Source of the DNA: Blautia sp. SC05B48
Lineage (GTDB): Bacteria; Bacillota; Clostridia; Lachnospirales; Lachnospiraceae
DNA: 64,000 bases
Assembly: GCF_005848555.1 (NCBI RefSeq)
Contig: NZ_CP040518.1
Location: 62,001-126,000 of the forward strand
Reading direction: 5' to 3'
Below are positions 32,205 to 60,888 of the stretch, piece by piece (within the stretch, counting starts at the first letter, position 1; each line of letters opens with the position of its first letter). The position numbers and the translations under genes were made by a program. A model generated the notes under the pieces. The model had not been told where the DNA came from and did not search any database. It was given only the letters and a program-made list of their open reading frames with translations.

Positions 32205-34064
32205 TCATGACACTCTCCCATTCTCCATCTCATACACCACATCTGCAACATTCATTGTAGAAGTTCTGTGTGACACCAGCACGACGGTACGGTTGGCATT
32301 ATCTTCTTTCAGGGACTTCAGGATGATGCCTTCGTTCAGGGAATCCAGATTGGAGGTTGGCTCGTCCAGAAGAAGGAGCGGGCTGTCGTGAAGGAAGGCT
32401 CTTGCAATACCGATTCTCTGCTTTTCGCCGCCGGAGAGTGTGTCTCCCAGTTCTCCGACTTCTGTGTCATATCCTTTTGGAAGGGTCATGATGAATTCAT
32501 GGATGGAAGCTTTTTTTGCGGCCTCCATGATTTCCTCACGGGTTGCGCCTGGTTTTGCGATGGCGATATTGTTTGCGATGGAATCGTGGAACAGGTGGGT
32601 TTCCTGTGTCACATAGCTTTCCAGATCCCGCAGCCTGCGTGTCGGGATCTCTTTTACATTTCTGTTATCTACGAAAATGCTGCCTGCACTTACATCCCAA
32701 AAACGCATCAGAAGCTTTAAAAGTGTGGATTTTCCGGAACCGCTGGCTCCATGGATACCGGTGATCTTACCCGGTGCAAGTTTCAGGGAGTAGTCGTCCA
32801 GGATGGTTTCATCTTCATATGCGAATGTCACATGAGAGGCTTCTGCACCTGTAAATCCATCACCGGATTCATCTTGTTTCTCCACATCATTAAACCTTCC
32901 AACTGCGTGAAACTCGATTCCATCCGGAATCTCCTCCACCAGTGGTTTCTCCTCCAGGAGCGAAAGCACACGCTCACCACTTGCCAGAGTCTGATTCAGG
33001 TTATTGGAAAGGCTGGACAGTGCCACAACCGGGCCAAAAGATCCCATCATGGCAATGGTACAGGTCAGGATTCCGTCAAAACCGATCTTACCTTTTCCAT
33101 AAAGATGGATCGTCAGCGCCAGCATTCCAAAGGACGCAAGCAGGATCATAAGATTGGTAAATGATCTCTGGGAACCTTCCATCCGGCTTAAGTCTTCCTG
33201 CATTCCTGCAAGTTTCCGGGAGCGGTCAGACATCTGGCCTTTTCTCTTTTCACCCTGATTGTACTGGATGGTTTCATCAAGGCCGCGGAGAGAATCCAGC
33301 ACAAAACTGTTCAGCTCACCAAACTCCGTACGGAATTCCATACCCTTCTGACTTCCATGCTTTCCATTCCACAGGGGAATCACCACACCTACGATCAGAT
33401 AGGCGGCCAGAGCCAGAACTCCGGCAAGCACATGATATCTTCCGATAAAAACTACCATGATCACAGAAGTCAGTGTTGCAATCGCAATGGGGGAAATGGT
33501 ATGCGCATAAAAAACTTCCAGAAGTTCAATATCCGTGGTGATAATGGAGATCAGGTTCCCTTTGTCACGACCTTCCAGCTTCGCAGGGCAGAGCTTACGC
33601 AAAACCGCAAATACCTTATGGCGGATGATCGCCAGAAGTTTAAACGCGATAAAATGGTTACAATACTGCTCCACATAATGAAGGATACCACGGAGCACCG
33701 CAATCAGGATCATAACGGCAATGATCCCTTTCACAGAAGTTCCGGCAAGCCAGGTACTCTTTATAACAACCTCCGGAATACCAGGAATCCCGGCACCTGC
33801 TGCACTTCCTGCCAGGCCATGGAGGATCACCTGCCCTGCCAGGATGGTCAGGAAAATAGCACATAAGTATCCCACGGTTCCCAAAAGAATAGCCGCCAGC
33901 ATAATATGGAGAAGGGGTTTCACCAGACCAATAAGACTTCTCATGATAGCAATGGCACTTCTTCGCTTTTTCGCTGTATCTGTTCCCGCCATGGCCATAT
34001 CTGTCTTCTGCCTGTATATATTTTTCTGAGTTTCAGCCATTTCACGTGCGTTATTGTCACTCAT
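32205..34064 (-). CDS. ABC exporter subunit (membrane + ATPase), second half of a heterodimer
   Basis: A 619-residue fused transporter subunit. Six membrane segments lie in about 45-330. The ATPase follows with Walker A GASGSGKST, signature LSGGEKQRIGIARAF and Walker B LLLLDEPTS. It resembles CydC-type and related heterodimeric exporters. The ATG at 34064 shares one base with the stop of the partner gene. Last gene of the heme-uptake operon; the streptococcal sia heme operon also carries ABC exporter genes downstream. Substrate is unknown: heme, porphyrin or a thiol are possible. Confidence 0.87.
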   Translation of the reverse strand: MSDNNAREMAETQKNIYRQKTDMAMAGTDTAKKRRSAIAIMRSLIGLVKPLLHIMLAAILLGTVGYLCAIFLTILAGQVILHGLAGSAAGAGIPGIPEVVIKSTWLAGTSVKGIIAVMILIAVLRGILHYVEQYCNHFIAFKLLAIIRHKVFAVLRKLCPAKLEGRDKGNLISIITTDIELLEVFYAHTISPIAIATLTSVIMVVFIGRYHVLAGVLALAAYLIVGVVIPLWNGKHGSQKGMEFRTEFGELNSFVLDSLRGLDETIQYNQGEKRKGQMSDRSRKLAGMQEDLSRMEGSQRSFTNLMILLASFGMLALTIHLYGKGKIGFDGILTCTIAMMGSFGPVVALSSLSNNLNQTLASGERVLSLLEEKPLVEEIPDGIEFHAVGRFNDVEKQDESGDGFTGAEASHVTFAYEDETILDDYSLKLAPGKITGIHGASGSGKSTLLKLLMRFWDVSAGSIFVDNRNVKEIPTRRLRDLESYVTQETHLFHDSIANNIAIAKPGATREEIMEAAKKASIHEFIMTLPKGYDTEVGELGDTLSGGEKQRIGIARAFLHDSPLLLLDEPTSNLDSLNEGIILKSLKEDNANRTVVLVSHRTSTMNVADVVYEMENGRVS

Positions 34065-35800
34065 CACACATTTCCCTCCTTCCCATAATTTTCCAGCGCA
34101 CTCTGGCTCTCATACAGATGACAGTAATCGCCACCCAGGGCCATCAGTTCCTCATGCTTTCCGCATTCTCTGATCTCACCGTTCTTCAGGAAGTAGATCT
34201 GATCGGACTGTACCACATTGGCAAGTCTGTGGGAGATCAGAAGTACAGTCCTGGTTTTTGCCATCTCATGAATAACATCCATGATCAGCTCTTCACTTTC
34301 CACATCAATGTTGGAGGTGGCTTCATCCATAATGTACACAGGGGCATCCGCAAGAAGTGCCCTGGCGATCACAAGGCGCTGGCACTGTCCGCCTGAAAGA
34401 TTTCCCGCCTTTTCCAGAAGGACCGTATCCAGCCCGTTCTGGGTATCCAGAAATCCAAGGAGATTGACCTTCTTAAGGACCTCACGCATTTCCTGATCCG
34501 TGGCATCCGTTTTTGCCATCTGAAGATTTTCACGGACTGTTCCCTTAAAGAGATAACTGTTGTGGCGCACCAGAACCACATGTTCCATCAGCTCATCTTC
34601 GCGAACGTCCCCGAGGGCAACTCCTCCGATACGGATATCACCGGAAAACTCCCGGTTCTTTCCGGAGAGGATTCCCGCAATGGTACTCTTACCACAGCCG
34701 GACTCTCCAACCAGGGAAACAAAGCTTCCCGCAGGAACCTGAAGATCGATCCCGCCAAGGATCTCACGGTCCTTCTCATAGGAAAAATGCACATCCCGAA
34801 AAGAAATATCCAGACCGCCCTCCGGCAGAGTTTTCTCTCCGGCTTTCGGCTCCGAAATATCCAATATCCGGAAAATCTTATCACTGGCAGCCATACCGTT
34901 CATGGCAATATGAAAAAAGGATCCAAGCAGCCGCAACGGCAGAAAAAACTCACTGGACAGAAGCACAATGCAGAGGGTTCCGGAAAGGTTTAAATTCCCA
35001 TGTAGAAACTCCGTCACCGCCACCGCCATACCAATGGCCGCACCGCCGTAAGCCACAATATCCATCACACTGGTGGAATTCAGCTGCATGGTTAAAACCT
35101 TCATGGTGATCTGGCGGAACCGCTGGGACTCCGCATCCATCTCGTCTGCTTTCTGCTGGTCTGCCTGATAGATCTTTAGGGTAGTCAGACCTTGAAGATT
35201 TTCCAGGAAGGAATCTCCAAGTCCTGTATAAATGCTCCAGTATTTGTTAAGAAGCTTCCTGGCGATCTTCTGTACCACCACAATGGAAATGGGAATCAGC
35301 GGCACACAGATCAGAAGTACCACGCTGGCTTTTAAGCTCACCCGGCAGAGGATCACAAAGAGTGTTACCGGTGCGATCAGGCTGTAAAACAGCTGGGGGA
35401 GATATTTTCCGAAATAGGTTTCCAGCTGCTCCACACCTTCTGTGGAAACCTGCACCACCTCAGAGGAGGAAACCTGCTCTCTGTAGGAAGCACCCAGCTT
35501 CAGCATTTTTTCATAAATTTTTTCTCTGAGGATCCGCTTTACATCCACGCAGGCCAGATAGGACGACCTTGCGCCCATCCGCTCACAGAAGAAGCGGATT
35601 ACAACAACCAGGATCAGCGTAAGAACTGTCCGTTTTACACTTTCTGAAGTAACGGAACCGTAAATCACTTTTTCCAGCAGCCCTGCAATGGAAAAAACGG
35701 CGATCACCTGGGACAGCAGGGCAAGCCACTGCCACAGGATCGTATACACGATATATTTTTTTGCGTGGGACAAAAGTCCCACCAGTCTTGTCTTGATCAT
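34064..35800 (-). CDS. ABC exporter subunit (membrane + ATPase), first half of a heterodimer
   Basis: A 578-residue partner of the next subunit. Six membrane spans occupy about 15-310. Walker A GESGCGKST, signature NLSGGQCQRLVIARAL and Walker B PVYIMDEATSNID are intact, so it should hydrolyse ATP. It follows the DUF454 gene by 7 nt. Placement at the end of the SiaABC-like heme cluster suggests a role in handling heme or its demetallated product, for example export of excess porphyrin, but this is inferred only from position. Confidence 0.87.
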   Translation of the reverse strand: MIKTRLVGLLSHAKKYIVYTILWQWLALLSQVIAVFSIAGLLEKVIYGSVTSESVKRTVLTLILVVVIRFFCERMGARSSYLACVDVKRILREKIYEKMLKLGASYREQVSSSEVVQVSTEGVEQLETYFGKYLPQLFYSLIAPVTLFVILCRVSLKASVVLLICVPLIPISIVVVQKIARKLLNKYWSIYTGLGDSFLENLQGLTTLKIYQADQQKADEMDAESQRFRQITMKVLTMQLNSTSVMDIVAYGGAAIGMAVAVTEFLHGNLNLSGTLCIVLLSSEFFLPLRLLGSFFHIAMNGMAASDKIFRILDISEPKAGEKTLPEGGLDISFRDVHFSYEKDREILGGIDLQVPAGSFVSLVGESGCGKSTIAGILSGKNREFSGDIRIGGVALGDVREDELMEHVVLVRHNSYLFKGTVRENLQMAKTDATDQEMREVLKKVNLLGFLDTQNGLDTVLLEKAGNLSGGQCQRLVIARALLADAPVYIMDEATSNIDVESEELIMDVIHEMAKTRTVLLISHRLANVVQSDQIYFLKNGEIRECGKHEELMALGGDYCHLYESQSALENYGKEGNV

Positions 35801-35807
35801 TGGCTGT

Positions 35808-36212
<405 letters not shown>

Positions 36213-36228: not shown

Positions 36229-37029
36229 TCATACTGTCAGTACAAATTTCCGGCCGTCCACCCGGGCCACCTTTAGATCAATACCATAAAGTTCATGAAT
36301 GCTTTCCTCCGTGATCACTTCTTCCGGCTCACCTTCCACGATGACTTTTCCACCGGCGAGACCGATGATCTTGTCGGAAAAATAGATCGACTGGTTGATG
36401 TCATGAAGGACCATAACGATGGTCATGCCAAATTCCCGGTTCAGCTTCCGCACAAGCTCCAGAATCTCGATCTGATATCGGATATCCAGATATGTAGTCG
36501 GCTCATCCAGAAAAAGGATCTCGGTTCCCTGTGCAAGCGCCATGGCGATCCACACACGCTGGCGCTGTCCGCCGGAAAGTCTGGATAATTCCCTCTCACG
36601 GAACTGGGAAACATTGGTCACTTCCATGGCCCAGTTCACATACCGCTCATCCTCTTCTCCACGGATCCCCATCATACCAAGATGAGGCGTTCTTCCGAAA
36701 GAAACCAGACGCTCCACGGTGATGTCATCCGCCGCCGTATTGTACTGATGTACAATGGCCACTTTTCTGGCAAATTCATTCAGACGCAACCTTGCGATGT
36801 TTTTTCCTCCCAGAAGGACTTTTCCCTTTGCAGGGTCCAGGTTTTTGGTCATCAGGGAAAAAAGTGTGGATTTACCGCATCCGTTGGCTCCCATAATGGT
36901 CGTCACCTTGCCTTTTTCGATCTTAAGGGACGCGCCTTTTAATATCTCGTTTTTACCATAGGAAAAGCATACATTCTTTACCTCCATGGCAGGTCGTTTT
37001 TTTTCCGTATTCTGTGTATCAGTCACCAT
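36229..37029 (-). CDS. Heme/iron ABC importer ATPase (SiaC/HtsC, FecE type)
   Basis: A 266-residue ATPase that powers a FecCD-type importer. Walker A GANGCGKST, Q-loop, signature LSGGQRQRVWIAMAL and Walker B ILFLDEPTTYLDI are complete. An AGGAGG site lies about 10 nt before the ATG, and the start overlaps the permease stop by 11 nt. Together with the permease and lipoprotein it forms a complete importer next to a Shp homologue, so heme is the likely substrate rather than a siderophore. Confidence 0.93.
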   Translation of the reverse strand: MVTDTQNTEKKRPAMEVKNVCFSYGKNEILKGASLKIEKGKVTTIMGANGCGKSTLFSLMTKNLDPAKGKVLLGGKNIARLRLNEFARKVAIVHQYNTAADDITVERLVSFGRTPHLGMMGIRGEEDERYVNWAMEVTNVSQFRERELSRLSGGQRQRVWIAMALAQGTEILFLDEPTTYLDIRYQIEILELVRKLNREFGMTIVMVLHDINQSIYFSDKIIGLAGGKVIVEGEPEEVITEESIHELYGIDLKVARVDGRKFVLTV

Positions 37030-38026
37030 ATTTTTTTGACCTCCTTAAGAGAATGATAAAGAACGGACCACCTACCACGCTCATCACAACTGCCGCACTG
37101 ATCTCATAGGGAGCTGCAATGGTCCTTCCGATGGTATCTGCCAGAAGGAAGGTAAAGGCTCCCGCAAGTGCGGAAAACGGAACCAGTGCCCTGTGGTCAC
37201 TTCCCACCAGGATCCTTCCGATATGTGGCACGATCAGCCCAAGGAAACTGATGGCACCTGCGATGGCTGTGGAAATACTTGCCAGAAGTACCGCGATCAG
37301 GGAGATCACGATTCGTGTGGCATTGACGTTCAGTCCCAGGCTTCGTGCTGTCTTATCTTCCAGAGACATCAGGTTGCACTCTCCGATAAACAGGCATGCC
37401 AGGAAAAGCCCTGCCACAACATAAGGAACCAGTGTTGTCACATCATCCCAGGTTTTCTGGGTGATATTGGCTTCTACGATGGAAGCCACGCCGGACATAT
37501 TTCCACCGCTCATGCTGTTAAAAGCGCTGGAAAGTCCGGCAAACAATGCATCTACTGCCACACCGGTGAGGATGATACGAAGAGGACTTAAGCCGCCCTT
37601 CCAGGACAGACAGTAAACCATCAAAAAGGCGACCACGCCGCCAAAAAACGCCACCAGCGGGGTAAAGAAATACAGTCCCGGTGCAAAAGCTGTGATCAGA
37701 ACTGCCGCAAAGCTGGCACCGCTGGAAATACCAATGATACCAGGGTCTGCCAGTGGGTTTTTAAGGACCGCCTGGAACAGAACACCGGAAACCGCAATGG
37801 CGGCTCCTGCCAGCATGGAAATGATGATACGCGGAAAACGAAGGTCATAGATGGTTGCCACTTCGTCAATACGCTCCACAAAAAGTCCTCTCATCAGCTC
37901 TTCGAAGGAAACCTTCAGGCTTCCGATATTGATGGCTGCAAAAAACAATACCATCAGAAGCACCGCCATGAGCACAAAGGAGAGCACTGCACGGAGCCGC
38001 TTTCTTTTTTCTCTGTTTTCATCCAT
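37019..38026 (-). CDS. Heme/iron ABC importer permease (SiaB/HtsB, FecCD type)
   Basis: A 335-residue membrane protein with about nine to ten hydrophobic segments. AGAAIAVSGVLFQAVLKNPLADPGIIGIS is the FecCD hallmark (start of the conserved block near residue 75), followed later by FLGLIVPHIGRILVGSDHR. The ATG at 38026 has AAGGAG at 11 nt, so it is preferred over the GTG at 38035. It starts 5 nt after the lipoprotein stop. Confidence 0.93.
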   Translation of the reverse strand: MDENREKRKRLRAVLSFVLMAVLLMVLFFAAINIGSLKVSFEELMRGLFVERIDEVATIYDLRFPRIIISMLAGAAIAVSGVLFQAVLKNPLADPGIIGISSGASFAAVLITAFAPGLYFFTPLVAFFGGVVAFLMVYCLSWKGGLSPLRIILTGVAVDALFAGLSSAFNSMSGGNMSGVASIVEANITQKTWDDVTTLVPYVVAGLFLACLFIGECNLMSLEDKTARSLGLNVNATRIVISLIAVLLASISTAIAGAISFLGLIVPHIGRILVGSDHRALVPFSALAGAFTFLLADTIGRTIAAPYEISAAVVMSVVGGPFFIILLRRSKKYGD

Positions 38027-38031
38027 TTTTG

Positions 38032-39180
38032 TCACTTCTCCTTTTCTGTGGTCTTTTGGGAATCTTCGGCTGCAGTTTTTCCGGATGTGCCGGATTTCTG
38101 CGCGTCTTCATATTTCTGGGTCGCATTGGATTTCTCTGCATTTTTCTGCGCGTTTTCACTGTTCTTTTTCGCTTTTTCCAGATCCTCGTCACTTTCCGGA
38201 TAAAGGATCGGCTGCAGCTCATCCAGTGCTTTCGGATAACGGAAAGTTGCGCTCATTCCGAAATTTTCATAAGTCAGGTCATACACCCTGCCATTTTTTA
38301 CCGCGTCGAAATGTTTCCAGATATCGTTGGTCTTGAAATCTTCGTTAAACATCTCCACGACCTGATCCGGAAGTGCGTGAGCCGCACGGAGGATGATATC
38401 CGGTTCTTTGGTCTTCATATCTTCGGTGTTTACCGTAAGAAATTCCTGATCTGTATCTGTATAAACATTTTCACCGCCAGCCAGAGCCACAAGACTTCCC
38501 ACGTAGGAATTTTCGGTAGCAATGATATAGCTGCCCGGAAGTCCCATCAGGATCAGCACCTTGGGATGGTCTTTTCCCTCGTTCTTCTTTTTGTATTCTT
38601 CGTAGAAATCCCGGAACTCTTTTACAAGCGTGCCTGCCTGCTCTTCCCTGTCAAAAATCTCTCCCAGTTCCTGAATGGAACGGTACATCCCCTGTACACT
38701 GCGAAGATTTAAAAACGCCCAGTCCACGCCGATATTTTCGTACTTGGGTTCAAGGTCTGACTGAAGAGAGATCGGGCTTAAAATCCAGTCCGGTTTCAGG
38801 GAAGCCACGATCTCCATATCCGGGCTCATGGCTGTACCCACGGTGGTTACAGCTTTATAACGCTCCGGAATGGTGGAAATGCTGCTGGAGCATACCCCAA
38901 CCAGATCCAGTTCCAGTTTGTCACAGATATCCGCAACTGCCGGAGAAGTAGCTACGATCTTCGGGGATCCCTCCATGGATCGTACCTTGGCTTTTGCCAC
39001 TTCCACTGCCTGTTTTTCCACAGGGTCCGTGATCTCCAGCATGGACTCCACCGTCTCTGTCTGTGTGGTTGTTTTCGTGCCTTCCGGGTGCTGATCCACA
39101 CAGCCGGTGAGAAGAAGGGACGCTGCCGCCAGGACTGTGACAAGAATTCCTCTGCTGATGCAGGATTTAATATTCATCAT
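38032..39180 (-). CDS. Heme-binding ABC lipoprotein (SiaA/HtsA type)
   Basis: A substrate-binding lipoprotein of about 382 residues. The N-terminus ends in the lipobox LLLTGC. The periplasmic-binding fold of FecB type is seen in PKIVATSPAVADICDKLEL, GTAMSPDMEIVASLKPDWIL and the C-terminal PKALDELQPILYPE. A charged Lys/Gln/Ser tail of about 55 residues follows the fold, longer than in typical family members. Upstream are four clustered ATGs; 39180 has GAGG at 9 nt. It should accept heme from the Shp-like protein encoded just before it. The specific heme ligand cannot be assigned by eye. Confidence 0.88.
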   Translation of the reverse strand: MMNIKSCISRGILVTVLAAASLLLTGCVDQHPEGTKTTTQTETVESMLEITDPVEKQAVEVAKAKVRSMEGSPKIVATSPAVADICDKLELDLVGVCSSSISTIPERYKAVTTVGTAMSPDMEIVASLKPDWILSPISLQSDLEPKYENIGVDWAFLNLRSVQGMYRSIQELGEIFDREEQAGTLVKEFRDFYEEYKKKNEGKDHPKVLILMGLPGSYIIATENSYVGSLVALAGGENVYTDTDQEFLTVNTEDMKTKEPDIILRAAHALPDQVVEMFNEDFKTNDIWKHFDAVKNGRVYDLTYENFGMSATFRYPKALDELQPILYPESDEDLEKAKKNSENAQKNAEKSNATQKYEDAQKSGTSGKTAAEDSQKTTEKEK

Positions 39181-40252
39181 CGTCATCATCCTCTCCGCCC
39201 CATCTGTGCCAGTTCTTACGGAAGTACCAGATGATCAGTGCAGTTACCAGGATCAGAACCAGACCGGAGCCTGTCACTGCCAGAGCAATGGCAAAGACCG
39301 TATTGATCTTTACGCTGCTTTCGCCGTCAGATTTCTTTTCCCCGGAAGTGATGCTGTCCTCTTCCGCTGTGGAAAAATTTAGTCCCTGGGCGCTGTTCAG
39401 TTCCTTGTCTGTATCGGACTCGTCAGAGCTTTTGGAAGCTGCTGCCTGTTTCTGTGCTGCCGCTACGGTGTTCCCGGAATTCATGGCATCCGCATTTCCT
39501 GTGGAGCCGCTTTCTGCAGTGCTCTGTGCAGCTGCTGCCTGGGTGGCCGCCGCATCATTCTGAGTTTCCTTCTCATTGTCCTGCGCAGCCTCATCCGTAC
39601 TTTCTGTTCCGTCCGTTTCCTGGGCACTTCCCGTATCCAGGGTACTGTTGGCAACTGCCTCGCCGCTTCCGGAAGCCTCGGCAGATGCTGCTTCTTCTGT
39701 TACAAAAGCAGGATTCATACCCACACTGTTTCCCTCGGAATAATCGCTTGGATACAGATAAAATGTAACGTTTCTTCCCATCGGGGTTACATACATGCTG
39801 ACCCGGACGATGCAGTTCTCGCTTGGAACCTGGATACAGATATCGGAGGTGGTTCCGTTGCTGTCTGAACCATTTGCGGTTACCGCGACGCCTGTGCCGG
39901 ACCAGCCGGAATCTCCTACATTCTGTACGCTGAAACTGTGACCGGACGTATAATCGATCAGGCTCATGCGGATCGTCAGATAATAATTGCCGGAGTCCGT
40001 CACTTCCATCAGACCACTTGCATAAACCGCACCTTCTACCATACCCTGTCCGGTGGCGTAGGATGCCTCACCGCCGGAGTCTTCGATCTCTCCTGTCACC
40101 GGATGGGAATAACACCGGTTAATGGTACAGGAATACACACTTCCCGACTCCGCGTGGACGGAAGTTACCGGAAATCCCAGAGTTGCCGCCACGAAGAGTA
40201 CTGCCGCTCCAAAACAGGTCAGTAGATTTTTTTTCCAATTTTTCTCTCTCAT
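39167..40252 (-). CDS. shp: Shp-like cell-surface heme-binding protein
   Basis: A 361-residue surface protein. A signal peptide (1-34) is followed by the Shp heme-binding domain (about 38-180): RCYSHPVTGEIEDSGGEASY, then GQGMVEGAVYASGLMEV, TIRMSLIDYTSG and SMYVTPMGRNVTFYLYPS. These match Streptococcus pyogenes Shp closely, including the methionines in the GQGMVEG and RMSL/PMGR regions that could ligate heme. A long acidic Ala/Ser linker leads to a C-terminal membrane span (about 318-342) and a HRWGGEDDDDDEY tail. In streptococci Shp hands heme to HtsA/SiaA, encoded immediately downstream here with overlap. Confidence 0.9.
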   Translation of the reverse strand: MREKNWKKNLLTCFGAAVLFVAATLGFPVTSVHAESGSVYSCTINRCYSHPVTGEIEDSGGEASYATGQGMVEGAVYASGLMEVTDSGNYYLTIRMSLIDYTSGHSFSVQNVGDSGWSGTGVAVTANGSDSNGTTSDICIQVPSENCIVRVSMYVTPMGRNVTFYLYPSDYSEGNSVGMNPAFVTEEAASAEASGSGEAVANSTLDTGSAQETDGTESTDEAAQDNEKETQNDAAATQAAAAQSTAESGSTGNADAMNSGNTVAAAQKQAAASKSSDESDTDKELNSAQGLNFSTAEEDSITSGEKKSDGESSVKINTVFAIALAVTGSGLVLILVTALIIWYFRKNWHRWGGEDDDDDEY

Positions 40253-43200
40253 TTCTTCTTTCCTGCCTTCTTTCTCAGGCTTCCCCCTCTGCTCTTGATC
40301 TTATAGAAAACACCTGCCAGTGCCGCCAGCGCGCTGACGGATACCGGAACTGCCACTTTTCTCATATTTCCGGAAGATTCCCCGGTACCAGTCTCGGTAT
40401 CTGCATAAGCTTCGCCGGAAGTGGTTGTCTCCTGATCCTGATCTGACGCATCGGAAAGGCCGCTGCTGGTAAGCTTTGTGGTTCCCGTATCTTTGGAATC
40501 CGATTTGCTGCCGATGCTCTTTCCGGATTTCAGCGCAGTAGTTCCTGCTGATTTCTTTGTGGATGTGGATTTGGTGGTGGTTCCGGAAGATTTCAGGGAA
40601 CCGCTGCTCTTTAAGGAGCTTCCTCCAGACTTGGAAGTACTACCGCTTAAGGAACCGTTGCTGCCGAGTTTGGAACCGCTTCCGCTTAAGGAACCGTTGC
40701 TGTTGGTACTTAAGCTGCCATTATTTCCGCTGAGAGAACCGTTTCCGGTGCTGTTATTTCCGCTGTTGCTTCCATCGCCATTGTTGTTATCGCCTTCGAA
40801 ACCAGGATCCTTGCTGTCCGTCTTTTTCAGGGTGCTCCAGTCCAGTTTCAGGAAGGCAGGCTGGGTTCCGGTGCCTTTGGTAATGGAATCCATAATGGGA
40901 ACAAAAACCTGAAGCGGCACATAACCGTCATTTTTTGCCTCATCGATCAGCGGGAATGTGACCACATCCGGATAATTGGTTCCGAAATTGTCCGTAACCA
41001 GCTTGCCGTTGGTGTATTTCTGATAGGAATCCACCGTTACATTGCCAAGAGAACCGGATGGTGCGCCATATTTATCCAGCTTGTAGCCGGTCTTAAAATA
41101 TTTCAGGGTACCTAAGTATCCAAGCTGTCCGTTAATGGTCAGCCCCTTGAAGTCCATGGTAATGGAATATTTTCCTTTCTTTACCGTCAGCTTGATGGTG
41201 TGATTGATGGCTTCGTTGGACATGGATGCAGATGTTTTGTCAATCTTTACCATGGAGCCTGTGACGGAATACACACCGTCCGCCAGGTTCTTCACATCCA
41301 GGCTGCTGTTGCTGCCGTTATTATTGCTGTTGTTGTTATTGTTGCTGCTGTTATTACCATTATTATTACTGCTGTTCGAACTGCTGCCGGAAGACTTCTT
41401 CTTCAGTCCGCTGACTGCCTTGGAAAGCTTTTTGATCTGTGTATTGACCTGGCTCTGGGTGGCACTGCTGTTATCATAAACCGTCTTTGCGGCAGTGATC
41501 GCAGAGTTTAATGTCTTCAGTGTGTCGGCCGTATAGGTATCTTCCCTGCCTGCCATATTGGAAGCCGTGAGAAGCATCTCATGAAGTCCGGTCTTATCCA
41601 CCTTTGTCTGGGAAGCCTTCTTCATGTTTTTCATCACATAATCCAGGATACCGGTCTGGGCATCGGTCTCTTCCTGACTGGACTCTTTGTTCCCGTAAAC
41701 CGCCTTTGCCGTTTCATAAACAGAACGGAGCACATCCATATCTGCGGCTGTATAATGGGCTGTATCTTTCAGATAAGTTTCCGCCTTTGTCAGCGCTTTT
41801 TTGATCTCACGGCGGTCCGTTCCCTGGATGATCAGTCCCTGGATGGCATTGTCTATGGCAGTGACACACTTGTTGACTTCTGTCTGAGAAGCCTCCTCAT
41901 TGTCATAGACCTGACTGGCCTTATCTCTTGCCCGCTGTAACGCCTCACGGGTCGATGTTTCATACTCTACATCCGTCTCATTCAGATAACTGTCGGCGGT
42001 CTCGATGGCTTTCTTAAGCTCACTCTTATCAGAATCTACCTTGACCTTGGTCACCGCATTTACCGCCATGGTAAGGGCTTTTACCTCATTGTCCACAACA
42101 GTCTGGTCGATGTTCATGTTTTTATAAACTGCCTGAGCTGCCGCAATGGCATCTGCAAGCATGGCAAGCTGCTCACCGGCATAGCCCTGGCTGTCCTGTT
42201 TAAGGGATTTCTGGACATTCTGCGCGTTTGTGACCTGTTTTTTCAGGGCCGCCTTGTCCGTTTCCGTTCCGCTGATCTGTTTCAGGTCATTCCAGTCCAG
42301 ATACATTTTCGCATACTGCTTTCCGCCACCTGCATTGATGGCTTCCATGACCGGAACATAGATCCTGGTCCATACGATGCTCTGGTTCAGCTCTACCGGA
42401 ATGGTTATGTAATGGGGATATTTTTTCCCTTTTACTGTGGCATCGGTGCCTTTTTTCGGATCGTTGTAGGAATCATAAATGTCATAGTAGGATTCCACAC
42501 CCACTGCTTTTGCTGTGGCAGCCTCTGCCGCCGGAACTTCATTCTCATCCAGAGACTGTGTTTCTTCCTGAGCCGCAGAAGCCTCTTCTCCAGTCGCTGC
42601 ACCATCGCTGTCCCCGGAAGCTTCCTCTCCATCCATAAAAAGTTCGTCTTCTGCTGCATCCTCTGTCTGTGCCTGAGAACTCTCTTCCGCAGCTTCCGTC
42701 TCTGCACTCTGCGCCTCTTCTGGATCTTCAGCTTCTGTCTCCGCCGCATTCTGCGTCTCACCGGTATCTACAGCCTGGCCTTCCTCTGCGGCCGCATAAG
42801 GCAGGGTATCTTCACTGGTAAATCCCGGAAAATACCACATGCTTGCCAGATAGCCGGTAAAATTCTGCTTGCCAAGCTTGGTAGTCAGGGACGTACATTC
42901 GATCCGCAGATGGATATCATTTCCTTTTTTTATCAGCTGGAAGGGTTTTACCAGCGCTGAGTTTCCCATGGAAACCTGATCTGCGGTAGCATGGTGGAGC
43001 AGTCCGCCGATCTGGTATACCCCGTCATAAACCGTATTGGAGTCCGTCTTCTGATAAAGTGCCTCCGCAGCCGCCTGAAGAAGCTGGATATGCTTATCCA
43101 CCAGGCTCTGTGTGGCAGACGGGTTTGCAGCCACCTGTTTTGCAGACGCAATGGCAGACTTTAACTGCTGTACGGAAGCGTCATCTGAGCCGGAAGTATC

Positions 43201-43731: not shown

Positions 43732-43756
43732 ACCCATCATCCTCCTATGAGCACTT

Positions 43757-49383: not shown

Positions 49384-52137
49384 TTATTTCACTCTTACTG
49401 TAACAAGAACTGTCTTTGTTCCTGCATTGTATTTTGCAGTTGCTTTTGCGGAAATCTTCACTTTGATCTTGTAGGTACCTTTCTTCAGGCCCTTCTTTAC
49501 CGTGATCTTTCCGTTTGTCTTATTTACGGTAAATGCAGAGCTTCCTGCTGTTTTTGCATAGGTCATTTTTCCCTTACTGCTCACGGAAGCACCAAGGGTA
49601 AATACCTGTGCTTTCTTACGAAGTGCATTGTAAGAAATATTTCTGGATGAGATCTTTGTCTTCAGGACCGGTGCTGCCTTGGCAACTTTGACAGTCAGGG
49701 TCTTTGTGGCAGCTTTGTAACTGCTGGTCGCTTTTGCAGTGATGGTGATCTTTGCAGTTCCGGCAGCTTTGATAGTCACTTTACCTTTTCTGTCTACAGT
49801 GGCAACTTTTGTATTGGAAGACTTGTAAGTCATGGCTGTCTTTGCCTTTGCTCCAAGGGAGAATGCCTTGTCACCGTATTTTTTGGAAACCACATTTTTG
49901 GTGTTCTTTACTGCAACTGTGATGCTCTGTGCTGCCTGTTTCTTGATGGTGGAAGGATCTGTCGGAGCCTTCTCAGTCTCAGCGAAATCTGCATCTGCAT
50001 CTGTGGTCTCTTTCAGTGTGGAATAATCCAGGCGCAGATAAACGTTCTGTTTTCCGGAACCAGGAGTGATGGCATCCATGATCGGAACGAATACCTGAAG
50101 CGGGATCTCATTGTTTCCTTCCAGAGCCTCTTCACACAGCGGGAACGTAATATCATTCGGATAATCCGTTCCGAAATCATCCTTCAGAGTCTTTCCGTTA
50201 GAGAACTTCTGAAGAGAATTTACAGTTACCGGAACCAGAGTTCCGCTTGGCTCTCCGGTCTTGGAAACCTCATAGCCACTTGCATAGTAGCTCAGGTTCT
50301 TCAGATATCCCTTCAGGGAAGTGATGGTCAGGCTGTTAAAGTTCATGTTCACATATGGAACACCGTTCTTTACTACCAGTTTGATGTTGTGGTTGATGGC
50401 ATTGTTGCTCATGGACATGTCCACTTTGTTCACTTTTACCATCTCACCTGTTAATTTGTATACACCATCGGAAAGCTTTGCAAGCTCTGCTGCGCTGGAA
50501 TCCTCAGAAAGATTATACAGGGTATCCCAGTACAGAGTGATGGTGGAATTGATGTTGAACTTACCTGCGTCAAAGTTTACGCCGGAAACCTCGCCGTTCA
50601 GGTTCTTCATGGCATCCACATAGAGATATACGTTGTTCACATAGGTCTGGCTGATACCGTCAAGAGGAACTGTGATATCCGTAACAACCGTACAGTCACC
50701 GATGGTCGGAGCTGTTGCGCTCTCTGTGGAATATGTTACGCCTTCTTTTGTAAGAGGCTGTGTAGTATCACCGTTTGGATAATATCCGTTATAGCCCAGA
50801 ACATACAGCGGCTCTCCGGTCGTTCCGGAAACCATCTTATAGGTCAGCCACATTTTTCCGTCATTGTCTACACGAAGGTATGCGCCAGCTTTTTTGCTCT
50901 CGCCAACCAGTCCGTGGTCAACCACATCTGTACGGTCTTTCATCTCGATGTAGTAAAGTCCTGGTGCCGGTTTTTCTGTCGGGGCATCCGGGATCACCTC
51001 CTGCTCGATCTTTACGCCAAGGGCATTCATGGTGGCGTTCTTTATGGCGTTGGAAGAATAGGTTGCTCCGGAAACAGTATCCAGATCGTTGAGCTTCTGG
51101 GCATCGTTCATATAGAGACCGGTAAGCTTTTCCTTCATACCCTTTGTGCTGCCAAGACCATTGATGGCCTTGTTCAGGTACATCTGGTTATCGTCCGCAT
51201 GGGTTCCCTTGAAATCATTTCCTGCAAGGGCAACATCGGTAATACGGCCATCCTTTACCGTCACCTGGGAGGTAACGTTGTAATTACCAAACTGCTCCAC
51301 CTCGGCTGTGCTGATCTCTGTAGTAAAATTCAGAGACGGATCCCCGGATTCCTTTGCGCCTGCATAGTCGATCTGAAGATAAGCATCCGGCGCATAGCCC
51401 ATGGCATCTACATACATGCTTAAGTATACGCCTGTTGTGTTGTACGCATCTTTCGGAATGGCAAAGGAGATGGTTTCCGGAACTTCATGGTTTCCGTTTC
51501 CGTCTGCCTTGCCTACCGTCTGTGCTGCCACGATATCCGCAGCCACCGTCTCCCCAGACGGCTTTGTTCCCTGATAGATCTTGAAATCATAGGCATAATC
51601 GGTAAGCGTTCCCACGGTTACGCTTCGAAGGTTTGTGGAAATCTTCGGAGTTCCGTCTGCGTCAAATGTCAGGGTTCCGAATTTACCCGGGCATGCAACT
51701 GCCGCACTGTCCTGCTCCAGATTGTGGGCATTTTTCAGAGTCAGCGGAACGATGTAGGTTTTTGCAGTATCAAAAGCAACTCCGTTAAGAGTCACTGTTC
51801 CGGCTGCTTCTGCTGCCGGTGCGGTTCCATCGGTAAGGCCGAAAGGATCTGCCTCATCAGAATCGCTCTCTAACGTATCCTGGGAAAGATCCAGAGAATC
51901 TGCATCTTCGCTCTTCTCCAGCTCTACAGCGTCACGGGAATCTTCTTCTTGGGATTCCTCTTCTGCCGGAGCTTTTGTCTCCGCTTCCTGCACATCGGTT
52001 TCTTCTTCAAAAAATCCCTGGTCCTGTGTCTCTTCTGCGCTCACTACGTCAGGCTGATCCTCTGCCATGGCCGTTACCGGAACCATGGAAGTTGCCATCA
52101 TGGAGGCAAGAAGAACTGCGATTACTTTCTTTTTCAT
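49384..52137 (-). CDS. Secreted NEAT-like protein with an embedded FMN-binding domain
   Basis: A 917-residue secreted protein. Order: signal peptide (1-25), acidic linker, NEAT-like domain 1 (113-262), FMN-binding domain (about 278-378) with DTVSGATYSSN at 353-363, NEAT-like domain 2 (392-540), canonical NEAT domain 3 (556-712: SMSNNAINHNIKL, IPLQVFVPIMDAI), then two Ig-like repeats (738-917). DxxSGAT fits the ApbE flavinylation motif of RnfG/NqrC-type domains, so covalent FMN on Thr 359 is likely. No LPXTG motif or C-terminal span is seen. It may reduce heme iron or methemoglobin outside the cell; this is inference. It has its own operator-bearing promoter. Confidence 0.85.
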   Translation of the reverse strand: MKKKVIAVLLASMMATSMVPVTAMAEDQPDVVSAEETQDQGFFEEETDVQEAETKAPAEEESQEEDSRDAVELEKSEDADSLDLSQDTLESDSDEADPFGLTDGTAPAAEAAGTVTLNGVAFDTAKTYIVPLTLKNAHNLEQDSAAVACPGKFGTLTFDADGTPKISTNLRSVTVGTLTDYAYDFKIYQGTKPSGETVAADIVAAQTVGKADGNGNHEVPETISFAIPKDAYNTTGVYLSMYVDAMGYAPDAYLQIDYAGAKESGDPSLNFTTEISTAEVEQFGNYNVTSQVTVKDGRITDVALAGNDFKGTHADDNQMYLNKAINGLGSTKGMKEKLTGLYMNDAQKLNDLDTVSGATYSSNAIKNATMNALGVKIEQEVIPDAPTEKPAPGLYYIEMKDRTDVVDHGLVGESKKAGAYLRVDNDGKMWLTYKMVSGTTGEPLYVLGYNGYYPNGDTTQPLTKEGVTYSTESATAPTIGDCTVVTDITVPLDGISQTYVNNVYLYVDAMKNLNGEVSGVNFDAGKFNINSTITLYWDTLYNLSEDSSAAELAKLSDGVYKLTGEMVKVNKVDMSMSNNAINHNIKLVVKNGVPYVNMNFNSLTITSLKGYLKNLSYYASGYEVSKTGEPSGTLVPVTVNSLQKFSNGKTLKDDFGTDYPNDITFPLCEEALEGNNEIPLQVFVPIMDAITPGSGKQNVYLRLDYSTLKETTDADADFAETEKAPTDPSTIKKQAAQSITVAVKNTKNVVSKKYGDKAFSLGAKAKTAMTYKSSNTKVATVDRKGKVTIKAAGTAKITITAKATSSYKAATKTLTVKVAKAAPVLKTKISSRNISYNALRKKAQVFTLGASVSSKGKMTYAKTAGSSAFTVNKTNGKITVKKGLKKGTYKIKVKISAKATAKYNAGTKTVLVTVRVK
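49780..49920. repeat. Direct repeat, copy 1 (3' parts of the two secreted NEAT genes)
   Basis: This stretch encodes part of the Ig-like domain and is nearly the same at DNA level as 52858-52998, with runs of more than 30 identical bases around the codons for [19 protein letters not shown]. Confidence 0.75.
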
Positions 52138-52457: not shown

Positions 52458-57052
<4,595 letters not shown>

Positions 57053-57190: not shown

Positions 57191-58024
57191 CTACAGCCAG
57201 AACATCAGAAGTGCGGTGCTCTCCGGCATATGGGCTTTGCCTACGCTGCAGGTAACGGTGATGGAGACCATTCCCTTTACGTTTCCCAGGTGGGTCTTCA
57301 TGAAGCGGCAGGCACTTAGGGGAATGCGAACTTTGCCCTCCCGGATGGCGGCTTCGTAGAGCTGGCCCTGGTCTACGTATTTCAGGGATGAGAGCCTTCC
57401 CCGCATATCTGCCCCGTCGATCCGGGAATGGGCGTGCATCTCACGGGTGGTCAATTCCAGCCAGCTTCCTCGGGTATTGTTCCGGATGCAGGCCAGATGC
57501 TCGAACCCGTTGTTTGCCATGGAAAGCTTCGTTGTGCCTTCTGTGTTCAGCTGATAAATGGCAATTCCTACTTCGAAGCGGCCTTTTTCCAGCACATGAT
57601 CCAGATAATAGAGGCTTCCTTTTTCTGCATTTGTCTGGTTTCGGGATTCCTTTACCTGGCCGGAATTTCTGGTCATTGTCATGAGAAGGCTGTAATCTAC
57701 GTTCTCAATGAGCTGTCTTGTTTTTTCGGGGATCTCGGATGCCGCGATCCCGATCCGTTCCAGATAGGCGCCGACTTCTTTCAGGATCCTCTGGTATGTT
57801 TTCAGTGCGCGGGTACCCTTTTCGGTAAATTCATAGCCTTCACTCAGGTATCCTGCACCAATGCATTCTTTAAAAAAGCGGCTTACCGGGCCATGGCTGA
57901 CTCCGCAGGTATCGGCGATCAGCGCCACGCTGCCTCGTTTTTTGCCTATTTTTGCCAGTTCTGTCAGATAGCGAATCTGCAGCATGGATGGATGGAGCAG
58001 TCCTTCAGTGTTTTCTTTTTCCAT
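57191..58024 (-). CDS. DtxR-related winged-helix regulator lacking key metal ligands
   Basis: A 277-residue protein. The N-terminal 75 residues form a winged helix (SVALIADTCGVSHGPVSRFF, then FTEKG). The dimerisation helix region reads RQLIENVDYSLL where the paralogue at 60 kb has ACRMEHV, so the Cys and His ligands are lost. The C-terminal 130 residues align weakly with the paralogue's C-terminus; both end in M-x-x-S-x-x-L-x4-W. It may sense something other than metal, such as heme. AGGAAG precedes the ATG at 58024, but the frame stays open to the edge of the adjacent IS607 element, so the original start may have been lost. Confidence 0.72.
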   Translation of the reverse strand: MEKENTEGLLHPSMLQIRYLTELAKIGKKRGSVALIADTCGVSHGPVSRFFKECIGAGYLSEGYEFTEKGTRALKTYQRILKEVGAYLERIGIAASEIPEKTRQLIENVDYSLLMTMTRNSGQVKESRNQTNAEKGSLYYLDHVLEKGRFEVGIAIYQLNTEGTTKLSMANNGFEHLACIRNNTRGSWLELTTREMHAHSRIDGADMRGRLSSLKYVDQGQLYEAAIREGKVRIPLSACRFMKTHLGNVKGMVSITVTCSVGKAHMPESTALLMFWL

Positions 58025-58120
58025 AAGCTTCCTGCCACTCAAAATGTGATTAAACATACTCACATCGAGATAATGCAGATTCTCACGAATACCGCTTACT
58101 GTTTCTTTGTGTATGCTTTT

Positions 58121-58215: not shown

Positions 58216-59379
58216 TCATGCAACTTCGTAAGTCTCTGCATCTCTCAGATTCAGTGCTGCATTGAGATCTCTGTCCTCAATATATCCACATGTGCATCTG
58301 TAGATCCTGTCTGAAAGTTTCAGATCTTTTTTTATACAGCTGCAGCAGTGGCAGATCCTGGAAGATGGATACCATCGGTCAACTACCCTCAGTTCGATTC
58401 CATTTTCAGCACATTTTGTTTTCAATTTTGTCCGGAATTCATAGAATTTCTGGGACGCAACTGCTTTTGAGAGATGCCGGTTCTTCATCATCCCGGATAT
58501 GTTCAGATCCTCAATCGTTATATGAGACGGCTTGGTTTTCACTATCTCAGATATTACCTTGTTGATATGATCTGTACGGATATTTTCTATCCGATGATGA
58601 AGTTTCTGTACTTTAAGCTTTTGTTTGCATATATTTGCTCTTTGAGTGAACTCTCCTTTCTTTAAATCCTCATATTTGCGGGAAAGCTTTCGCTGTGCCC
58701 GTCTTAATTGTTTCTCAAGTTTTCTGATCCGTGCTGTTTTATTGATATTTCTGTATACAGTTCCATTTGACACAACTGCAAAGTCTTTCAGCCCCAGATC
58801 GATTCCGATCCCATCAGTGAGATTTCCATCTGCTTCCGGAGCAGGTATATCGACAAGTGCAGACACATAATATCTGCCTGCTTTCATGGAAACTGCCCCG
58901 CTTCGGATCACATATCCATCCTTAGAGGTCGGAATGTAACCTTTTTCTTTCAGCCTTACCCAGCCAAGTGTTGGGATCTTGATCCTGTGACGTTCACAGA
59001 GACAGTCTTTGGGATTATTCTTTACAAAATACATTTTTACATCAGATCTTCCTTTTTTCTTATATCTCGGGAAACTACTCTGATGATGAAAAAATCTTGA
59101 AAAAGCGGTACAGGCATTTTCGATTGCATTCTTTACCGATTTGGAACTGACTTCTCTGATCCAGAAATATTCCGGATGCCTTGGAAGGTATTCATTGTTC
59201 AGCCATACACTGAACGACTTGCCGCTCATAAATCTTTCACCGGCATCATAACGTTCTTTATTATGAAACAGGTAGAAATTATAAATATATCTGCATGTGC
59301 TGATTGTCTTATGTATTTTGATCTTCTGCTCTTCTGTAGGATCGATCTCTGTCTTGAAGCTCTTCAGCAATCTCCTCAT
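58216..59379 (-). CDS. tnpB: TnpB RNA-guided endonuclease-type protein
   Basis: A 387-residue OrfB/TnpB protein. The split RuvC residues are Asp 194 (GIDLGLKDFAVV), Glu 290 (ITIEDLNISGMM) and Asp near 371 (DRDLNAALNL). The zinc-ribbon cysteines are in ICHCCSCIKKDL and YRCTCG. All catalytic residues are present, so the nuclease looks functional. The start overlaps the end of tnpA by 71 nt. Confidence 0.95.
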   Translation of the reverse strand: MRRLLKSFKTEIDPTEEQKIKIHKTISTCRYIYNFYLFHNKERYDAGERFMSGKSFSVWLNNEYLPRHPEYFWIREVSSKSVKNAIENACTAFSRFFHHQSSFPRYKKKGRSDVKMYFVKNNPKDCLCERHRIKIPTLGWVRLKEKGYIPTSKDGYVIRSGAVSMKAGRYYVSALVDIPAPEADGNLTDGIGIDLGLKDFAVVSNGTVYRNINKTARIRKLEKQLRRAQRKLSRKYEDLKKGEFTQRANICKQKLKVQKLHHRIENIRTDHINKVISEIVKTKPSHITIEDLNISGMMKNRHLSKAVASQKFYEFRTKLKTKCAENGIELRVVDRWYPSSRICHCCSCIKKDLKLSDRIYRCTCGYIEDRDLNAALNLRDAETYEVA

Positions 59380-59980
59380 CCTTTTCTATCTGTTTTTTAT
59401 ACTTACGAAGTCCATATAATCTACAGGAAAACACATGAAGGATGGAAATAATATCCTGTACAAGTTCTTCCTGTGGTGACAGTTCTTCATTGTTCACCAC
59501 CAGTATCGTTGTGTGGAATCTCATGCAGAATCTTTCAAACCAGTCGTATCCAAAACGGATAAATCTGTCTTTATGCGTGATCACTATGGTTTTGACCTTC
59601 TGCTCCATGACTTCGTCCAGTAATCCATTCCATTTCTTGCGGTTATAATTAAGTCCGCTTCCATAGTCTTCAATGCACTGGTCTACGATCATTCCTCTGG
59701 CATTACAGAACTGACGCAGAAATGCTGTCTGATCTTGAAGATCATCCTTTTGGTTTTTGGTAGATACTCTTGCATAAATAACAACTTTTCGTTTATCATG
59801 TTCTATATTTATACCTTTAAATTGAAGATACTGGTCATATGTGTAATAACGCCTGTCTGTTGGAGTTCGGTTTGCTTTTAAGATTCCCTCTCTGTCCCAT
59901 CTCTGAAGCGTTTTTACAGAAACACCTAATAATCCAGCAAAATCTTTTGGTTTATAATTTGTGATATTTGATGTGTTCAT
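59309..59980 (-). CDS. tnpA: IS607-type serine recombinase TnpA
   Basis: A 223-residue transposase. The N-terminal 60 residues are a MerR-like DNA-binding domain (FAGLLGVSVKTLQRWDREG). The resolvase domain follows with VVIYARVSTKNQKDDLQDQT, where Ser is the nucleophile, and ITHKDRFIRFG. Length and layout match intact IS607 TnpA. The ATG at 59980 has GGAGG just upstream. Confidence 0.95.
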   Translation of the reverse strand: MNTSNITNYKPKDFAGLLGVSVKTLQRWDREGILKANRTPTDRRYYTYDQYLQFKGINIEHDKRKVVIYARVSTKNQKDDLQDQTAFLRQFCNARGMIVDQCIEDYGSGLNYNRKKWNGLLDEVMEQKVKTIVITHKDRFIRFGYDWFERFCMRFHTTILVVNNEELSPQEELVQDIISILHVFSCRLYGLRKYKKQIEKDEEIAEELQDRDRSYRRAEDQNT

Positions 59981-60054: not shown

Positions 60055-60888
60055 CTACCAGATATGTACATCCAGCTCCCGGCTGTTCCACTCCATGGGG
60101 TTCTCTCCTTCTCTGGCAAATGCCACCAGGGCGGTTCCTTCTATGACCGGATCGTGATGCCGGAGAAAATATTGAAATACGCCAGTAGGGATCAGCGGGT
60201 TGCCGTCTTTTTCGGCAGCTTTCATCCAGCCGGTCTCCGGATCCCGGTACCAGAGATCCAGACGGTTCTTGGTCTGGTCTGTGCGGAGGAGTTCGAAGCA
60301 GCTGTCTTCTTCTTTTACGTGGAGGCTGATCTGTTCCCGGTAGTCTTTAAATTCTGTGGTCAGTCTTCTCGGGCAGGTTTTTTCCATGTAGTAGATGCCC
60401 ATCATGAAGGTGTAGTCTCCCGGTTCGTAGTAATACCGGAGGTCTGTTTTTTTCATGACACGCTCAAAGGTGCTTCCGTAGTTGATGAAATTATGGATCT
60501 GCTGCACGGTCTCTTCGCTTGCCACATGTTCCATGCGGCAGGCGTCTTCTTCTGCAGTTTCGCTGTTTACGCCTACATACTCCAGAAACTGGGTGAAGGT
60601 TTCATGACGGTGGCGGCATTCTTCTCCGCGGATGCATCCCAGCTCTGTAAGACGGACGTAGGATTTGTTTTCTTCTGTTTTTACATAGCCCCGTGCGGAG
60701 AGCTGTTTCAGATAGGCCAGCACTTCCCGCCGGGTCATCTCCATCCGCCCGCAGATCTCCGGAATGGTGATCCGGGCGTCCTTTTTTGCAAGAGAACAGA
60801 GCTCTTCCAGCATGTCTTCCTCGGTTTCTCTTTTGGAAGAAGGCATGCTGTGGCCCAGTTCTTCTGTGAAATCCTGATCATTTTTCAT
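60055..60888 (-). CDS. DtxR-family metalloregulator with a C-terminal extension
   Basis: A 277-residue regulator. The winged helix (ITIPEICGRMEMTRREVLAYL to YVRLTELG, about 40-84) is followed by the metal-binding dimerisation domain with RHRHETF (His 95) and DACRMEHVAS (Cys 117, Glu 120, His 121), the classical DtxR ligands. Instead of a short SH3-like domain, a C-terminal part of about 140 residues of unknown function follows. It likely senses iron or manganese and represses the heme island. Its own promoter carries the shared operator at +1, so it should be autoregulated. The ribosome site before the ATG is weak. Confidence 0.87.
   Translation of the reverse strand: MKNDQDFTEELGHSMPSSKRETEEDMLEELCSLAKKDARITIPEICGRMEMTRREVLAYLKQLSARGYVKTEENKSYVRLTELGCIRGEECRHRHETFTQFLEYVGVNSETAEEDACRMEHVASEETVQQIHNFINYGSTFERVMKKTDLRYYYEPGDYTFMMGIYYMEKTCPRRLTTEFKDYREQISLHVKEEDSCFELLRTDQTKNRLDLWYRDPETGWMKAAEKDGNPLIPTGVFQYFLRHHDPVIEGTALVAFAREGENPMEWNSRELDVHIW

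Follow-up and report, generated by a model that had tools for sequence, protein, structure and literature searches.

A BchH-side class I chelatase among heme-uptake genes of Blautia sp. SC05B48: a candidate for oxygen-free release of heme iron

Introduction

How might a strictly anaerobic Gram-positive gut bacterium free the iron of the heme that it captures? Heme oxygenases need oxygen, and the heme-demetallating protein HmuS has been described from Bacteroidota. The question is raised by an island at positions 32205-60888 of a stretch of 64,000 nt (the window; coordinates count from its position 1) of Blautia sp. SC05B48 (GCF_005848555.1, NZ_CP040518.1, 62,001-126,000), whose genome of 3.73 Mb forms a single contig. 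All island genes lie on the minus strand (Table 1), and they combine surface proteins and an importer of heme-binding families with the three subunits of a class I chelatase, i.e., a BchH/CobN-family large subunit (H), a ChlI-type ATPase (I), and a VWA subunit (D). An earlier reading made from the letters of this DNA (the sequence-only reading) had named the three subunits, flanking NEAT proteins, Shp, and an importer, and profile matches recovered all of these parts at the places it had given. We infer heme as the substrate, iron removal as the direction, and ATP as the driver of the reaction, and consider it probable (roughly 0.6) that the island chelatase acts as a cytosolic, ATP-driven, oxygen-free remover of iron from captured heme. 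That its substrate is heme or a close porphyrin is somewhat more probable still. Articles are cited below by their PubMed Central (PMC) numbers.

Results

Affiliation of the Chelatase

Maximum-likelihood trees unite H with relatives from other Bacillota families in a separate clade, which is sister to the BchH group. The grouping of the H clade with BchH receives Shimodaira-Hasegawa-like approximate likelihood ratio test (SH-aLRT) values of 99 and 98 in trees of 44 and 38 rows, and a support of 100/99 (bootstrap/SH-aLRT) in a tree of 32 rows. The latter tree places the BchH-side rows in a group of their own (100/100), with the H clade outside it, and CobN in a separate clade (99/98). References were BchH, CobN, and HmuS loci from named records (L006 included) and frames from the phylum search. 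Of the 68 frames listed with a match, 43 made up the 44-row tree together with the window; the 38 rows, also used for the residue alignment, are 31 listed frames, six new frames, and the window, and the 32-row tree is this set minus L113, L114, L059, L022, L023, and L081. Forcing the tight part of the H clade (see below) together with HmuS costs 75.6 log-likelihood units (approximately unbiased test, p-AU 0.0008; one test, on a quick tree). Among NCBIfam models BchH gives H its best score (723.5 bits, cut-off 829) and CobN the next (521 bits, cut-off 822), both below cut-off, and against solved structures the best score is that of ChlH (445 bits), ahead of CobN (358 and 322 bits) and HmuS (313 bits); two outer members of the clade, L053 and L055, do exceed the BchH cut-off (861.5 and 851.4 bits). 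The sequence-only reading had called the large subunit CobN and had proposed a CobN tree with BchH, ChlH, and HmuS as references; since trees and scores place H on the BchH side, outside the CobN clade (100/99), that name has to be given up. A place inside the cobalamin-synthesis clade, which that reading had named as grounds against its own proposal, was not observed. The BchH group includes G387, which may be Heliobacteria-like and whose H stands beside bchLNB-like genes. Another genome with bchLNB-like genes (G598, L057:7579-11516) has a BchH-like protein beside them that is split over two overlapping frames.

H holds H577 in the motif HFGTHG and H996 and E999 in DLDHYYEF. Its hydropathy reveals no membrane anchor at either end (maxima 0.87 and -0.67 vs. 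1.51-2.76 and 2.74-3.20 in four HmuS rows), and H would therefore be cytosolic, behind the importer. As the sequence-only reading had seen, a ChlI-like ATPase overlaps the large subunit: I shares 4 bp with H and has intact Walker A (GQKGTAKT) and Walker B (ILYVDE) motifs. D carries motifs of the metal ion-dependent adhesion site type (DASRS/TDG), and the family scan found no AAA match in it. No second copy of PF02514 was found elsewhere in the genome.

In HmuS, H538 (of HFGTHG) and H1209/E1212 stand at the site of demetallation, and the change H538A abolishes heme conversion (PMC12583661). These three residues align with H577, H996, and E999 of the Blautia protein. Over the 38 chosen rows, histidine at the H996 position occurs in all eight clade rows (that of L113 being partial), in 5 of 6 BchH-side rows (L069 has Gln), in all four HmuS rows, and in none of the 20 others, which are CobN, CobN-like, and ExbB-type; four of the six CobN reference rows have Asp/Gln at 996/999, and none has His at 996. 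The porphyrin-handling families thus share a residue that is absent from the corrin-handling references. At position 999, Glu is found in all eight clade rows and all four HmuS rows, and Asp in four proteobacterial BchH rows. H further has an N-terminal Met-rich stretch (11 Met in 76 residues), which recurs in the four other tight-clade rows covering the region (7-11 Met in 30-76 residues with the window included; L113 does not reach it), whereas the counts are 4-6 Met in 57-61 residues for the four proteobacterial BchH and 2-3 Met in 48 residues for L053 and L055. HmuS has a Met-rich insertion in domain IV (PMC12583661); the possible parallel may serve as a lead only.

The genome has its own way to cobalamin. 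Four of its six TP-methylase matches cluster at 3.162-3.167 Mb, where the translations read as CbiD, CbiL, CbiF, CbiG, CbiH, CbiJ/ET, CbiA, CbiB, CobD, and CbiP, and a CbiK-like gene (258.6 bits for its best family, below the cut-off of 400) adjoins hemA-, hemC-, hemB-, and hemL-like genes, also named from their translations. The anaerobic cbi pathway is an early-cobalt route that makes no use of CobN, and with this cluster and the CbiK-like gene the genome consequently needs none. Tree, scores, residues, and this anaerobic route together rule out H as a CobN for B12 synthesis, and tree and missing anchors rule it out as a member of HmuS, although the active-site residues agree. The earlier statement that cobalamin genes are lacking holds for the island proteins scanned (the rest of the window is unannotated), but not for the genome, with its cluster elsewhere. 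No chlorophyll gene was found among the island proteins scanned, the whole genome not having been searched for such genes.

Heme Capture and Import

The Shp domain and the IsdE/HtsA-type binding protein both score above their curated cut-offs, so that the Shp protein and SiaABC-type importer seen in the sequence-only reading are borne out by PF11545 and TIGR03659. The NEAT-like proteins on both sides of the chelatase are likewise real: two pass the Pfam cut-off for NEAT (32.8 bits) and the third is supported by a model. In this third protein (52458-57005) FIVAR exceeds its cut-off and Big_2 does not, and the AlphaFold model of residues 135-274 (mean predicted local distance difference test score, pLDDT, 82.9) finds NEAT or Shp entries, alone or in complexes, at ranks 1-46 among the best 50 matches in the Protein Data Bank (PDB), with a top E-value of 1.6e-5. 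The second upstream NEAT protein (49384-52137) has a flavin mononucleotide (FMN)-binding domain and, at residue 353, DTVSGATYSS, which we take to be a flavinylation-type motif; it is a possible surface heme reductase. The available part of a survey of flavinylation (PMC8238504) contains no mention of NEAT. Overlaps of a few bases join H and I, the NEAT-FIVAR gene and Shp, Shp and the binding protein, the binding protein and FecCD, FecCD and the ATPase, and the CydD- and CydC-like genes.

Related Loci in Other Bacillota

Of 299 genomes of the family, one has a PF02514 match; for the genus the count is 3 of 64, and for the phylum 47 of 398. A profile of the clade (A1) matched 10 of 391 genomes of the class, five of them (the own genome included) above 1050 bits and five at 692 bits or less. 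The tight clade consists of the window and G575, G964, G928, G1029, and G1098, with G595 and G624 as outer members, altogether from seven families. A FecCD gene lies within 10 kb in all eight clade loci, the window included, compared with 2 of 15 other PF02514 loci (L061 and L116), as judged by BLASTP with the window FecCD at E 1e-6; the count of 15 leaves out 30 loci (L007-L036) with a flank of about 1.5 kb or less, and several of the 15, as of the eight, are cut by contig ends. G575 has two sets of binding protein, FecCD, and ATPase, followed by H, I, a second I-like gene, and a VWA gene. In G928 binding protein, FecCD, ATPase, H, and I are followed by a longer ID-type protein (TIGR02442, 710 bits), G1029 has the same three importer genes and then H, which a contig end cuts off after 80 codons, and G1098 has H, binding protein, and FecCD. 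The outer loci of G595 and G624 hold H, I, a longer I-like gene, and ABC-2-type genes (read by eye), with FecCD 6-8 kb away.

A counterpart of the Blautia arrangement stands in G964, which belongs to another family of the same class (Clostridia). Here a run of genes on one strand consists of a NEAT protein (50.4 bits), binding protein, FecCD, ATPase, H, a lipoprotein (by eye), a class B sortase (251.8 bits, cut-off 153.75), an IsdC-like NEAT protein (PF05031 47.7 bits; IsdC model 52.2 bits, under its cut-off of 155.85), I, and a longer I-like (ID-type) gene. In Isd systems, sortase B anchors IsdC. CbiJ stands upstream of the first NEAT gene, with purine genes farther out. Three of the six genomes of this family had a match, namely G964 and two at CobN-level scores, so that no further clade member was found in it. 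A similar small lipoprotein (by eye) without a Pfam match stands in the chelatase runs of G964 (L109:11749-12249) and G575 (L054:14074-14604). Elsewhere in G964 (L110:4410-5930) another binding protein has an N-terminal RnfG/FMN-type match (31 bits, below cut-off), i.e., a flavin-type domain together with an importer.

For the importer binding proteins, IsdE is the best-scoring family in G575 (two proteins), G595, G624, G964, and G1098, and the second best, after TIGR04281, in G928 and G1029. All eight score higher with IsdE than with BtuF, narrowly so in G595 (91.8 vs. 89.1 bits); none of these eight passes the IsdE cut-off, which the window's own protein does. NEAT domains occur in 3 of 6 tight-clade genomes, in neither of the two outer ones, and in none of nine other PF02514 carriers tested. 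Of the tight-clade genomes without NEAT, two are only 77% and 86% complete and G575 is 99% complete. In G928 a NEAT/IsdE locus lies on the chelatase contig, about 70 kb away. Directly behind its NEAT, IsdE (357.7 bits, above cut-off), FecCD, ATPase, and sortase genes is a nitrogenase-like set (L122, G928:C8:86000-105900, positions 2318-5982, minus strand), made up of a NifH/CfbC-like part, whose 358-361 bits stay under both cut-offs, and a pair of NifDK/BchNB-like proteins (105-125 bits), of which one has a tail rich in Met. The set might encode an enzyme that reduces porphyrins in connection with heme uptake; no published account of such a set was found among the matches listed.

The H clade is thus linked repeatedly with FecCD-type importers and, in two lineages, with NEAT or Shp in one gene run. 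The co-occurrence across Firmicutes that the sequence-only reading had proposed to look for covers the FecCD-type importer in all eight clade loci and extends to NEAT or Shp in the gene runs of these two lineages; no NEAT match was found in five of the eight clade carriers. Its placing of a chelatase in the heme uptake of a Gram-positive anaerobe is, apart from the name CobN, strengthened by the run of G964 in a second family. That H-I-D has been recruited in several lineages of Clostridia/Bacillota as a cytosolic ATP-driven dechelatase, coupled to NEAT/Isd or Shp/Hts uptake, stands at about even odds. Among plasmid records no clade member of at least 60% identity was found; the rows listed were BchH, CobN, ExbB-type, or unannotated.

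Discussion

Function of the Island

In the mechanism that we propose, NEAT proteins and Shp would capture heme at the cell surface and pass it to the IsdE/HtsA-type importer, through which it would enter the cytosol whole. There H would bind the heme in its central cleft, where H577 and H996/E999 would surround the metal, and the I-D ATPase pair would drive a change of shape by which ferrous iron leaves and protoporphyrin or a derivative remains. The FMN-bearing NEAT protein might, at a guess, provide electrons for the reduction of ferric heme outside the cell.

To our knowledge, the characterised H-I-D complexes insert metal, and the same machine might do so here, adding iron, zinc, or magnesium to an imported porphyrin to yield heme or another metalloporphyrin. 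The nearness of BchH agrees with such an insertion, as do the ATP-driven chelation catalysed by CobN and ChlH (PMC12583661) and the protoporphyrin that gut Bacteroides yields from heme (PMC10100974). The surface and importer genes, however, belong to heme-binding families, and we regard insertion as unlikely. It is less probable still that H-I-D handles cobalt in a corrin imported or salvaged via FecCD. FecCD importers also carry B12, and B12-type genes adjoin two of the clade loci, since CbiJ precedes the run of G964 and the other side of the G624 locus has best matches to CbiD, CbiG, CbiF, CbiL, CbiT, CbiC, and CobJ. Against this stand the place of H with BchH in tree and family scores, the lack of His at the 996 position in all CobN references, the preference of all neighbouring binding proteins for IsdE over BtuF together with the pass of the window's own, and the CbiK-like gene and anaerobic cluster of the genome. 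Very improbable, in our view, is that H-I-D serves other porphyrins from food or soil, acting for example on the magnesium of chlorophyll derivatives: BchH is a magnesium chelatase family, and chlorophyll is mentioned as something that NEAT-bearing soil bacteria might feed on (PMC4143258), but Shp, NEAT, and IsdE are heme families and the island showed no chlorophyll-specific feature.

A cassette that was acquired, has no present function, and is decaying in the genus would account for its broken state in Blautia luti (G734, NZ_JAAITI010000041.1), for the lack of a PF02514 match in two other genomes of the genus with Shp (G693 and G701), and for a segment missing from H, whose middle part is without about 95 residues that three relatives have. 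Yet the frames of H, I, and D are all open and their motifs intact, and the pieces of H shared with B. luti have a ratio of nonsynonymous to synonymous substitution rates (dN/dS) of 0.12, so that this explanation, too, has a very slight chance. The same observations in the genus also weigh against the removal of iron from heme by the island chelatase, since B. luti has kept its NEAT proteins and importer with H in pieces, D fragmentary, and no room for I between them, and no PF02514 match was found in G693 and G701, whose loci comprise Shp, the importer, DUF454, and the CydDC-like pair. To these must be added the gap in H and a structure model of it from a two-row alignment that was unusable (mean pLDDT 34.6) and was set aside; the rarity of the clade, with PF02514 in a single family genome; the B12-type genes near two clade loci; the FecCD importers near two CobN- or ExbB-type genes; and the lack of NEAT in five of eight clade carriers, the count of 3/8 vs. 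0/9 not being significant alone (one-sided Fisher about 0.08, by hand). Moreover, HmuS works without ATP (PMC12583661), and the ATPase subunits are hence dispensable for iron removal as such.

Comparison with Known Systems

HmuS, of the hmu operons of Bacteroidota (PMC12583661; PDB 9d26), resembles the Blautia protein in its superfamily, its heme-uptake loci, and its HFGTHG and LDH..E motifs, but is anchored in the membrane at both ends and ATP-free, whereas Blautia H is unanchored, comes with I and D, and belongs to the BchH side. The magnesium chelatase BchH/ChlH is nearest by score and tree and shares the H-I-D make-up, while the Blautia protein is in a sister clade amid heme-uptake genes and has Glu at 999, where four proteobacterial BchH have Asp. 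CobNST is of the same superfamily and subunit types; Blautia H differs in its place outside the CobN clade and its His/Glu at 996/999, and its genome has a CbiK-like gene. The streptococcal Shr-Shp-SiaABC (HtsABC) system (PMC9331361, PMC12796733) has the same Shp, IsdE/HtsA-type binding protein, permease, and ATPase, with a NEAT/FIVAR protein just upstream; the Blautia island adds H-I-D and the FMN-bearing NEAT protein, and the word chelatase does not occur in PMC12796733. Oxygen-free iron release from heme in bacteria is also known from the anaerobilin synthase ChuW/HutW, including a Gram-positive case (PMC12670364, PMC12077173), which is a radical S-adenosylmethionine enzyme that opens the ring and is unrelated to chelatase. 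Its Enterococcus homologue (PMC12077173) is the sole Gram-positive route that we found in print.

HmuS is almost restricted to Bacteroidetes in gut data, with Methanomicrobia also named in a table (PMC10100974), and Bacteroides proteins are treated in PMC6460266. In PMC12583661, most remaining clusters of the superfamily are described as not reliably annotatable, NEAT and Bacillota do not occur, and Firmicutes occurs once. No published chelatase joined to Gram-positive heme uptake was found in open-access PMC, among the matches listed, in keeping with the earlier impression that NEAT/Shp with a full chelatase is undescribed. The island thus joins to such uptake a class I chelatase of a branch other than HmuS. 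If iron removal by the island chelatase is true, it would be a third oxygen-free route to heme iron, besides HmuS, which stands on a different branch, and anaerobilin synthase, to which the chelatase has no relation; a biosynthetic machine would here run in reverse for nutrition, with ATPase partners that HmuS lacks. It would also bear on the origin of gut protoporphyrin and assign a role to the genes that are annotated as cobN or magnesium chelatase in chlorophyll-free bacteria. The gene run of G964 makes the question of the substrate directly testable.

History within Blautia

Shp was found in 4 of 64 genomes of the genus. Because G693 and G701 have the importer module without PF02514, the module seems to be the common core, to which H-I-D and the NEAT proteins look like an addition; in G701 the winged-helix gene is directly followed by Shp. 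The dN/dS of the H pieces (over 505 codons) compares with 0.11-0.24 for the NEAT genes and 0.02-0.06 for the importer, values that are rough because dS is 0.6-1.2, and it agrees with H having been under selection during most of the time that has passed since B. luti split off. In G750, which gave no Shp match, two CobN-type genes lie in tandem on a 12-kb contig (L044, G750:C99); one of them lacks both active-site histidines.

Other Genes of the Island

The CydDC-like pair also stands behind the importer in G693 and G701; it is therefore not specific to a product of the chelatase, and the suggestion that it exports porphyrin was set aside. The sequence-only reading had not mentioned the FMN_bind domain, the DtxR-type regulator, the IS607-type element, or the gap in H. 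No TnpA/TnpB match was found between the two regulators in B. luti or G701. TnpB pieces of an IS607-type element do occur in B. luti beside the NEAT-FIVAR gene (L090:19211-19940), next to the broken chelatase genes.

Table 1. Features of the island in 5' to 3' order, with window coordinates and profile matches (ABC, ATP-binding cassette).
Feature	Position	Strand	Evidence
DtxR-type metal-dependent regulator	60055-60888	-	PF02742 47.6 bits; relatives beside B. luti and G701 loci
IS607-type element (TnpA resolvase, TnpB), between the two regulators	58216-59980	-	PF00239, PF01385, PF07282
Winged-helix regulator	57191-58063	-	PF24409 21 bits, below cut-off; relatives in G701 and B. luti
Secreted protein with NEAT-like domains, FIVAR, Big_2	52458-57005	-	NEAT 31.9 bits, just under cut-off
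NEAT protein with FMN_bind	49384-52137	-	PF05031 36.2 bits, PF04205 33.1 bits
H, BchH-side class I chelatase large subunit, 1151 amino acids	45768-49223	-	PF02514 888 bits
I, ChlI/CobS-like AAA+ ATPase	44812-45771	-	TIGR02442 421 bits, BchI-ChlI 355 bits, both below cut-off
D, VWA domain only	43976-44716	-	PF13519, PF00092; C-terminal part of TIGR02442 183 bits
NEAT protein with FIVAR repeats, directly upstream of Shp	40249-43740	-	PF05031 40.7 bits, PF07554 78 bits
Shp-type heme-binding surface protein	39167-40252	-	PF11545 196 bits
Importer binding protein, IsdE/HtsA/SiaA type	38032-39189	-	TIGR03659 411.5 bits, cut-off 298.65
FecCD-type permease	37019-38035	-	PF01032 289 bits
Importer ATPase	36229-37029	-	PF00005; FecE and heme ATPase families below cut-off
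DUF454 protein	35808-36191	-	PF04304 126 bits
CydD-like ABC half transporter	34064-35800	-	TIGR02857 401 bits, cut-off 435
CydC-like ABC half transporter	32205-34067	-	TIGR02868 304.5 bits, cut-off 329

The short motif AACTAAC stands at window positions 57038-57044 and 60928-60934, upstream of the 52458-57005 gene and of the DtxR-type gene, and also upstream in B. luti, G693, and G701. As a regulator box it is a lead only, as its two occurrences in the window compare with about four by chance. The island is adjoined by a gene for an AAA-ATPase_like/PDDEXK_9 protein (window 61042-62745).

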